Below are positions 3,024-5,825 of a DNA stretch of 64,000 nucleotides, piece by piece (position 1 is the first letter of the stretch; each line of letters begins with the position of its first letter). The stretch lies in contig JACPQM010000081.1 of the NCBI GenBank assembly GCA_016190505.1, positions 1-64,000 of the forward strand, given 5' to 3'. A model generated the notes under the pieces. It made no database searches. It saw only the letters and a list, made by a program, of their open reading frames with translations, and was not told where the DNA came from. This DNA is from Chloroflexota bacterium (GTDB lineage Bacteria > Chloroflexota > Dehalococcoidia > JACPQK01). Made by a program: the position numbers and the translations under genes.

Positions 3024-3722
3024 ATGGCGAGAAAGAGGCAGCAACAAGCCCCGCGCCGGGAAAGCCGGGTGCGACTGGGGGTCGCGGTCCTGGGCGTTGC
3101 CCTGGTCGCGGTCCTGGCGGTAGGCGCGCTGGTATTCCTAAACCGGCCCTCAGGCAGCTCGCTGCCTCTGGTCAAGCCGGCGCCCCCGCCCTTCGCCGCG
3201 GGCACAACGAAGGGCTTAGCTGGCGCCCCGCTGACCATCATAGAATATTCAGACTTCCAGTGACCGTACTGCCAGCGCTTCGCCCGTGAGGTGGAGCCAG
3301 AACTGGATAGCGAATACATCGCGGCCGGGCTCGTTCGGTTTGTCTACAAGCACTACATTATTCTGGGGCCCGAGTCTCAGTGGGCCGCCGAGGCATCGGA
3401 GTGTGCCGCGGAGCAGGATGGCTTCTGGTTCTATAAGGACAAGCTGTTTGCCAACCTGGCGGGAGAGAACCGCGGCTCGTTCACGCGCCCCAAGCTGGAG
3501 GCCCTGGCCCGCGAGTCCGGCCTGGACGTACCGGCGTTCAAGAAGTGCCTCGACTCGGGCAAGTACGCCGCGAAGGTGGAGGCCGATAGCCAGGAAGCTC
3601 GCGCCGCAGGCTACCGGGGCACGCCCACGTTGGTCATCGGGGACCAGGTGGTACAAGGCTTGCCGTCGGTTACCCAGTTGAGGCAGGCAATTGGAGCACA
3701 GCTCCAGAAGTCGGGCAAGTGA
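3024..3722 (+). CDS. DsbA-family disulfide oxidoreductase with predicted selenocysteine (UPYC)
   Basis: One continuous frame of 233 codons is interrupted only by TGA at 3261-3263 (codon 80). The translation around it reads IIEYSDFQ-U-PYCQRF, so TGA sits exactly where DsbA/BdbD proteins have the first Cys of the CPYC redox motif. The same frame continues for 152 more residues with normal family features: the helical insert and a cis-Pro loop GTPTLVIGDQVVQG. Residues about 13-37 form one membrane anchor, which places the thioredoxin domain outside the membrane. A SECIS-like hairpin lies 13 nt after the TGA. The start ATG 3024 follows GGGAGGA. The gene is followed directly by VKOR, the usual reoxidation partner. 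The alternatives are a single Cys-to-stop mutation or a sequencing error; the hairpin and intact downstream frame argue against both. Selenocysteine machinery is not in this window. Confidence 0.85.
3261..3306 (+). promoter_or_regulatory. Predicted bacterial SECIS element for UGA-80 recoding
   Basis: Beginning 13 nt after the TGA, bases 3277-3284 (GCTTCGCC) pair over all eight positions with 3290-3297 (GGTGGAGC), two of them G-U wobbles, closing a five-base loop CGTGA at 3285-3289. An outer four-pair helix, CCAG (3272-3275) with CTGG (3303-3306), extends the stem. In known bacterial SECIS elements a short stem-loop lies within the coding region roughly 16-37 nt after the UGA, with a G/U-rich apical loop bound by SelB. 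Here the loop begins 21 nt after the UGA and carries GU. The pairing is seen directly; SelB binding is inferred. Confidence 0.7.
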
Positions 3723-4268: not shown

Positions 4269-4730
4269 TCAGGCCGCCCTGGCCAGTGGGGTCACTTTGG
4301 CCAGCTCGGGGACCTGATGCAGCAAGCCCAACTGGCTGAACAGGGACAGCGAGTCGAAGTAGCCCTTCTCCTCGACAATCAGACCTTCCGAATTGCGCCG
4401 GCAGACGCACACCCCCTCCATGGTCACCCTCTTGCCGGTGGGCGAGACCGTGCCCCAGGGGGCCTCCAGGAAACCAGTGTTGGTGCCGGTCCAGCTATAC
4501 TCCGCGACCACCCAGTCCCCGCTCTCGTAGGTCCTCAGCAACTTGGCATTGATATCGGGGAAGGCGCGGAACATGGCTGCCCAGTTGTATACTATGGCCT
4601 CCCGCCCGCGAGCGGGCTCCCTGTAGTCCCCGGAGAACATCACGGCATAGGGCGCATAGCAATCAGCAATAGCGCCCACGTCGTGCCGGTTGAGCACCTC
4701 GTTGAACTTGTACACAAACGACTCGTGCAC
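4269..4730 (-). CDS. SnoaL-like (NTF2-fold) protein
   Basis: This 153-residue NTF2-fold protein resembles the SnoaL ester cyclase family. Typical features are an N-terminal helix FVYKFNEVLNRHDVGAIADCY, GREAIVYNWAAMFRAFPDI and the paired strand segments VVAEYSWTGTNTG and GVCVCRR. The function is unknown; such folds act as small cyclases, isomerases or hydratases, or only bind ligands. The start is GTG 4730 next to GGAGGAGGAA. A homologous domain forms the N-terminal half of the neighbouring gene at 4863, suggesting duplication followed by fusion. Confidence 0.75.
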   Translation of the reverse strand: MHESFVYKFNEVLNRHDVGAIADCYAPYAVMFSGDYREPARGREAIVYNWAAMFRAFPDINAKLLRTYESGDWVVAEYSWTGTNTGFLEAPWGTVSPTGKRVTMEGVCVCRRNSEGLIVEEKGYFDSLSLFSQLGLLHQVPELAKVTPLARAA

Positions 4731-4862: not shown

Positions 4863-5765
4863 TCAGGCAGCCTTCCGGGTGCGCGCCTTGCGCACGTGGC
4901 TGACCATCTCCGCGGTTTCCTTCTTGAACCTATCGTGGTCGAACTGGCCACCACTGAGATAGGCGCTCAGGCCCGAGGTGAGCTTGGCCATGAGGACGGC
5001 CTCCCTGATCTCGTCCTCGCTAGCGCCGAACAGCTTGGCGATCTCTGCATGGAAGAAGGTACAGTAGCCGCAGCGCAGGGCGGAGGCCGCCGCCAGGCCC
5101 ATCAGCTCCTTGTACTTGTTGGGTATGGCTGTCTCTCCCAGCTCCACGGAGCTGATGAGTGCCCAGTCATGCTCCAACTCACCCTCAGGCAGTTTGCTCA
5201 GCCACTCGGGCACCGTCCCGAAGTGCTCTTTGATCTCGGCCAGCGCCTCGCCCTTTGTCAGATAGGAGCTCCTGATCCTACGGATACCGGGAAACGCGGC
5301 CAGGGGCGCCGGGGTAACCTGAAGGCCAAATTCCCCCAGGAGGGACATGACATCGAAGTAGCTGCGTTCCTCGACGATCTTGCCCTGGGCATCGAATTCA
5401 AAGACCGTGGTGCCGCTCAACCGCACCTTCTTGCCAGTGGGCGGAACGTTGACCAGCGGCGTAGTGAAAGGGCCGGTCTGGGTGCCCATCACCGTCCATT
5501 CCACAAACCCGTAGTCGCCGCCGAATTGTTTGTGGTGCAGCTTCAAGGAGACGTCCCAGTGGTGCAGCTTCCAGGACATGTCCGGCATCGCCTGGAACAG
5601 GGATTCCCGGGTCTTCATGATCTGCTCTCGGCCGCGAGCTACGCCCCAGGGCGGCCAATGCCGCACTGCGTCTTCCGCATAGAAGTCGCCGATTGCGGCG
5701 AGGTCACGGCGGTTGAATGCCTCGCCAAAGTCCGTTATGAACTTGTGGAACTCCTCAGGCGTCAT
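4863..5765 (-). CDS. SnoaL-like domain fused to a carboxymuconolactone decarboxylase/AhpD-like domain
   Basis: The 300-residue protein has two parts. Residues about 1-165 are SnoaL-like (HKFITDFGEAFNRRDLAAIGDFY, GREQIMKTRESLFQAMPDM). Residues about 175-300 are a carboxymuconolactone decarboxylase/AhpD-type helical domain with the redox pair CGYC (ALRCGYCTFFHAEIAKLFG). AhpD-type CxxC domains reduce peroxides or have decarboxylase-like roles. I start at ATG 5765, since a GTG three bases earlier is too close to GGGAGGG. It sits between a free SnoaL homologue and a free CMD homologue. The fused architecture suggests the neighbouring single-domain proteins act together. Confidence 0.8.
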   Translation of the reverse strand: MTPEEFHKFITDFGEAFNRRDLAAIGDFYAEDAVRHWPPWGVARGREQIMKTRESLFQAMPDMSWKLHHWDVSLKLHHKQFGGDYGFVEWTVMGTQTGPFTTPLVNVPPTGKKVRLSGTTVFEFDAQGKIVEERSYFDVMSLLGEFGLQVTPAPLAAFPGIRRIRSSYLTKGEALAEIKEHFGTVPEWLSKLPEGELEHDWALISSVELGETAIPNKYKELMGLAAASALRCGYCTFFHAEIAKLFGASEDEIREAVLMAKLTSGLSAYLSGGQFDHDRFKKETAEMVSHVRKARTRKAA

Positions 5766-5825
5766 CACGCCCTCCCCGCATCAATGCCCCGTTGGGTCCC
5801 ACCGAGCAACCTCTGGTGCACGAGT

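Follow-up and report, generated by a model that had tools for sequence, protein, structure and literature searches.

A dsbA-like gene with an in-frame TGA

The window analyzed here is a 64,000-nucleotide stretch of contig JACPQM010000081.1 from a Chloroflexota genome of the class Dehalococcoidia. Near its start lies a dsbA-like gene with an internal TGA and a downstream hairpin, followed by a gene for a VKOR (Table 1). Upstream of this pair, between 221 and 2921, are ORFs matching ModA, ModB, and a ModC/PotA-type ATPase. Farther downstream, a reverse-strand ORF at 4863-5768 appears by eye to combine two domains, one SnoaL-like and the other AhpD/carboxymuconolactone-decarboxylase-like and bearing a CGYC motif; it adjoins an ORF at 4269-4730 that, again by eye, is SnoaL-like.

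Table 1. Positions of the dsbA-VKOR features in the window.
Feature	Position	Strand	Basis
dsbA-like gene, predicted selenoprotein	3024..3722	+	ORF reading, PF13462/PF01323, alignment, AlphaFold, PDB fold matches
In-frame TGA read as selenocysteine, first residue of UxxC	3261..3263	+	TGA/Cys at the homologous codon, Sec machinery
SECIS-type hairpin, 8-bp stem with apical loop CGUGA	3277..3297	+	Folding, criteria of PMC13188914, family enrichment
Outer 4-bp helix CCAG/CUGG extending the SECIS	3272-3275 with 3303-3306 (3272..3306)	+	RNAfold
VKOR, 135 aa	3739..4146	+	PF07884 (6.9e-26), alignment, class-wide gene order

The dsbA frame contains one internal TGA, at residue 80, continues for 152 sense codons, and terminates at another TGA (3720-3722), giving a read-through product of 232 residues. 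The internal TGA stands where the thioredoxin motif, here SDFQ-U-PYC, would have its first Cys. An earlier note on this DNA had described both the position of this single TGA and the length of the frame beyond it, and they are confirmed by the ORF reading and by two Pfam matches that span the codon: PF13462 (Thioredoxin_4; 1.1e-32, residues 64-223) and PF01323 (DSBA; 1.7e-20). Coding composition also persists downstream of the TGA. When the window was scanned for coding-like read-through frames, four TGAs were recovered, and only the one at 3261 sat at a redox motif.

The read-through protein begins with a membrane anchor (residues 15-39) and continues into a thioredoxin-fold domain with the active site U80-P-Y-C83 and a cis-Pro loop at T200-P201. 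Position 80 (Cys or U), C83, and P201 are invariant in an alignment of 20 homologues, and C127 and C175 are nearly so. The AlphaFold model (mean pLDDT 87.7) comprises the N-terminal helix and a DsbA-like domain, for which the best PDB matches are Corynebacterium diphtheriae DsbA/TsdA and Bacillus subtilis BdbD (~27-31% identity, rmsd 1.6-1.8). The defining features of the DsbA family, namely a thioredoxin fold with a helical insertion, a UxxC motif, and the cis-Pro position, are all predicted for the protein. Together, these results support the assignment of the product as a putative membrane-anchored, extracytoplasmic DsbA-type thiol-disulfide oxidoreductase with a predicted Sec at residue 80.

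Selenocysteine machinery of the source genome

The source assembly (G000) is a 3.23-Mb draft in 100 contigs, 84.9% complete, and is the only member of its order in our comparison set. The earlier note had proposed looking for selA, selB, selD, and tRNA-Sec, and would have given up its selenoprotein reading had tRNA-Sec or SelB been absent; all four are present: SelA at 559.6 bits, SelB at 344 bits over its frame (cut-off 242), SelD at 376.9 bits, and a tRNA-Sec at 66.4 bits with anticodon TCA. The SelD ORF, on the reverse strand (L019:1078-2442, G000:C61), has an in-frame TGA of its own within the catalytic motif (CAG-U-AAK), which makes SelD a second likely selenoprotein of this genome.

TGA and Cys alternate at the active-site codon

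Homologues were sought in 393 Dehalococcoidia genomes, and many of those recovered carried one internal TGA. The TGA occupies the homologous codon in 27 further Dehalococcoidia genomes, while the other homologues encode Cys, an alternation that the earlier note had proposed to look for. At every TGA-bearing locus fetched from the class, it is the first Cys codon of the CxxC motif that is TGA, yielding UPYC, UPFC, UPVC, USHC, UPSC, UGGC, and UGNC; a UPVU variant occurs in one genome. The same codon is also TGA in Thermodesulfobacteriota, Myxococcota, Acidobacteriota, Nitrospirota, Planctomycetota, and other phyla. A DNA scan for the motif DFQ-U-P-[FY]-C returned at least 118 stretches from many phyla, and the DsbA frame carries on past the TGA in nearly all of the loci fetched from that scan. 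The recurrence of TGA at this codon in dozens of other genomes is far beyond chance.

A tRNA-Sec was detected in 25 of the 27 genomes with a TGA-containing dsbA, the two misses being 72% and 88% complete. It was also detected in 26 of 33 genomes with a Cys-encoding dsbA, and its presence thus discriminates only weakly between the two forms. In a tree of 106 rows, built with TGA treated as a gap, parsimony requires at least seven switches of the Sec/Cys label. Two of them are imposed by branches with good support, and the window gene is placed in a mixed Sec/Cys clade.

Two further arrangements were seen among the homologues. At L060:3214-3825 (G365:C46), both active-site Cys codons are TGA (U-PV-U), and the neighboring VKOR looks frameshifted or broken. 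In one Dehalococcoidia family (f21), tandem arrays of three to five DsbA-like genes (L061, L062, L063, L068, L070, and others within L065-L078) have TGA at the first active-site Cys of each gene (U-GGC, U-PSC, U-GNC, U-GGC) and no adjacent VKOR; at least two of the array proteins look by eye like lipoproteins.

A SECIS-type hairpin follows the TGA

The 8-bp stem with loop CGUGA and the outer 4-bp helix reported in the earlier note are located where it had placed them. The inner stem pairs 3277-3284 with 3290-3297, beginning 13 nt after the TGA, and the loop occupies 3285-3289, with G at its second position followed by U. Bacterial SECIS elements are described as having G in the first two positions of the apical loop and a loop 16 to 37 nt from the UGA (PMC13188914); with its CGUGA loop 21 nt from the UGA, the window hairpin conforms to this rule.

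The further claim that this hairpin is a bacterial SECIS holds for spacing, loop, and family enrichment. It does not hold for the stability of the hairpin on its own, which shows no significant excess over synonymous-codon shuffles (p 0.13-0.21). We therefore used Cys homologues as the control. The mean z over the 45 nt after the TGA is -1.66 for TGA genes versus -0.41 for Cys genes (p 2e-8). This added folding stability is limited to the first stretch after the TGA, disappearing beyond +30. A rule-conforming hairpin with a stem of at least 5 bp is found in 140 of 170 TGA genes versus 7 of 35 Cys genes (Fisher 2e-12). Within the VKOR-linked set, a stem of at least 7 bp occurs in 9 of 10 Sec genes versus 3 of 25 Cys genes (p 3e-5). 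All of these p-values are inflated by related rows, and 50 of the 170 TGA genes come from the arrays of a single family. No qualifying hairpin was found in one Sec orthologue (L055), and an Rfam scan of the hairpin region gave no match, a result that would bear on the SECIS only if the release used includes a bacterial SECIS family. Thus, the SECIS hairpin is convincing in the family comparison and not singly.

A VKOR gene is the conserved neighbor

The start codon of the VKOR gene lies 16 nt past the dsbA stop, and alignment shows that its product retains all four redox cysteines (C31, C37, C110, and C113). It is the sole VKOR match in the source assembly. A VKOR lies immediately 3' of dsbA at all 10 Sec loci of the window type (the window and nine others) and at 25 of 28 Cys loci, counted in a selected set of best hits and TGA-bearing hits. 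The locus displays the sequence features of a DsbA-VKOR pathway: a conserved gene pair, and two pairs of redox Cys in the VKOR. Elsewhere, many UGA homologues lack a VKOR neighbor, which indicates that dependence on VKOR is not family-wide.

The source genome encodes a second DsbA, of the Cys form (DFQCSFC; L080:3067-3669, G000:C43:3578-4120), which adjoins ORFs that by eye are CcmF-like and TlpA-like thioredoxin; no VKOR was found at that locus. This paralogue is possibly a functional backup. In another Chloroflexota genome, a Sec-DsbA (DFQUPAC) and a Cys-containing VKOR are encoded on the same strand, the reverse, about 1 kb apart (L256, G577:C115).

Proposed function and alternatives

That VKOR re-oxidizes DsbA, with quinone, is well established in bacteria (PMC11208910). 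Taken with the conserved dsbA-VKOR order, this leads us to infer that VKOR recharges the Sec-DsbA, which would act as an extracytoplasmic oxidase. With the downstream hairpin as the signal, SelB and tRNA-Sec would insert selenocysteine at UGA codon 80. The active site U-P-Y-C would then cycle between a selenolate/thiol and a selenenylsulfide, most likely oxidizing exported proteins, and the downstream VKOR would re-oxidize it and hand the electrons to quinone. Selenocysteine is expected to bring fast exchange and resistance to over-oxidation. We assign this reading, a Sec-DsbA that is most likely an oxidase re-oxidized by the adjacent VKOR, a probability of about 0.9. The UGA, the family assignment, the Sec machinery, the Cys/UGA alternation, the SECIS enrichment, and the conserved gene order are all read from sequence, and they make the selenocysteine assignment as strong as evidence of that kind allows. 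Insertion of Sec in cells, transfer of electrons to VKOR, and catalysis in the oxidase direction as opposed to that of a reductase or isomerase are what these features would imply, and the VKOR relay is likely. The selenium-dependent DsbA-VKOR pathway raised in the earlier note is thus well supported in its gene order, the pathway itself being the inferred part.

Sec might also be inserted into a protein with another role, such as a reductase, an isomerase, or a peroxide- or metal-handling redoxin, with VKOR a neighbor that takes no direct part in exchange. A selenenylsulfide is a weaker oxidant, and so more reducing, than a disulfide, which favors reductase chemistry. Furthermore, the NCBIfam family that comes closest consists of thioredoxin-like (seleno)lipoproteins for which no function is stated, and a VKOR neighbor is missing for most of the Sec homologues from other phyla. 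Nevertheless, we consider such a role unlikely, as almost every orthologue of the window type within the class, Cys or Sec, keeps the dsbA-VKOR order, BdbD (an oxidase) and C. diphtheriae DsbA/TsdA are among the closest folds, and VKOR is known to re-oxidize DsbA in bacteria (PMC11208910).

A highly improbable alternative is an ordinary Cys-DsbA gene in which the TGA arose through an error of sequencing or assembly, or through a recent nonsense mutation. In its favor, TGC and TGT are each one base from TGA, the genome is in draft form, and the gene has close Cys homologues. However, independent assemblies have TGA at the same codon, and its presence at an identical position in independent lineages makes sequencing error very unlikely. 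The genome also contains all four Sec factors, the frame downstream retains conserved residues as well as coding composition, and TGA genes have the SECIS-type hairpin far more often than Cys genes do.

A reading of the UGA as another amino acid under a reassigned code, or as a stop that leaves a 79-residue anchor peptide, is very improbable: although what is made at the UGA is predicted from sequence, TGA is also the normal stop of this very gene and the code is therefore not reassigned, the internal TGA of homologues sits at the redox Cys, the full Sec system is present, and a 79-residue product would have no active site.

The preferred reading, a Sec-DsbA recharged by VKOR, would tie the use of selenium to a defined extracytoplasmic pathway, DsbA-VKOR disulfide formation. 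The natural Cys and Sec versions of one operon in related genomes offer a direct test of what selenium contributes to oxidative folding. Annotation that halts at UGA makes such genes appear as truncated fragments.

A candidate Sec-VKOR

In one genome (G007), the VKOR gene that follows a Sec-DsbA has a TGA as well (L052:3559-4041, G007:C216; TGA at L052:3949-3951). This TGA takes the place of the first Cys of the active-site CxxC (LQAI-U-PWCVAEAM), and the 29 residues past it align with other VKORs. The stretch after it can form a hairpin with a G-containing loop, with p ranging from 0.002 to 0.11 as the folded length is varied. The draft assembly has 9% contamination, the gene sits close to the end of its contig, and the order is represented by this one genome. 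No further Sec-VKOR came to light when 393 Dehalococcoidia and 400 Chloroflexota genomes were searched for VKOR; the VKOR TGAs in G504, G418, G464, and G606 were rejected, as they fall off the active-site Cys. We therefore regard the G007 protein as a candidate Sec-VKOR from a single genome, a lead and not a finding. Whether a DsbA with U-x-x-C and a Sec-VKOR of the G007 type make the whole extracytoplasmic disulfide relay selenium-based in some Dehalococcoidia is, in our estimation, an even bet. If so, VKOR would be a new selenoprotein family, and electrons would cross selenenylsulfides at two successive steps.

Comparison with known systems

Sec-DsbA itself is an established selenoprotein family. 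Selenocysteine-containing "DsbA-like" UxxC proteins were described in 2005 from nine Sargasso Sea sequences (PMC1088965), appeared again in 2006 (PMC1794560), and are included in a review from 2026, the text of which does not mention VKOR (PMC13188914). In the open-licence PMC papers searched, we found no partner assigned to the proteins cataloged since 2005, no description of the VKOR operon context, no selenium version of the DsbA-VKOR pathway, and nothing relevant that links VKOR with selenoproteins.

The window protein resembles form 1 of the DsbA-like selenoprotein family (PF01323, UxxC) in its DsbA/thioredoxin fold, with Sec first in the CxxC motif, and in having a bacterial SECIS-type element just downstream and widespread Cys homologues. 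Unlike form 1 as described, it is predicted to be anchored and is encoded in a VKOR operon conserved in Dehalococcoidia. Its best NCBIfam match is NF041057, the Rcas_1661 family thioredoxin-like (seleno)lipoprotein, a Sec/Cys thioredoxin-like family entered as "DsbG-like" in PMC13188914. The window protein scores 131 bits against a curated cut-off of 190 and, unlike these lipoproteins, has a transmembrane anchor and no lipobox Cys.

The nearest solved folds, B. subtilis BdbD and C. diphtheriae DsbA/TsdA, are likewise similar in structure, but these are Cys enzymes. The partner of BdbD is the DsbB-like BdbC, not a VKOR. A parallel in gene content is the DsbA-VKOR pathway of, for example, mycobacteria (PMC11208910, PMC12421883), in which a DsbA-type oxidase is likewise encoded with a four-Cys VKOR expected to re-oxidize it. 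The window system differs from these in that the first catalytic Cys of its DsbA is, as predicted, selenocysteine.
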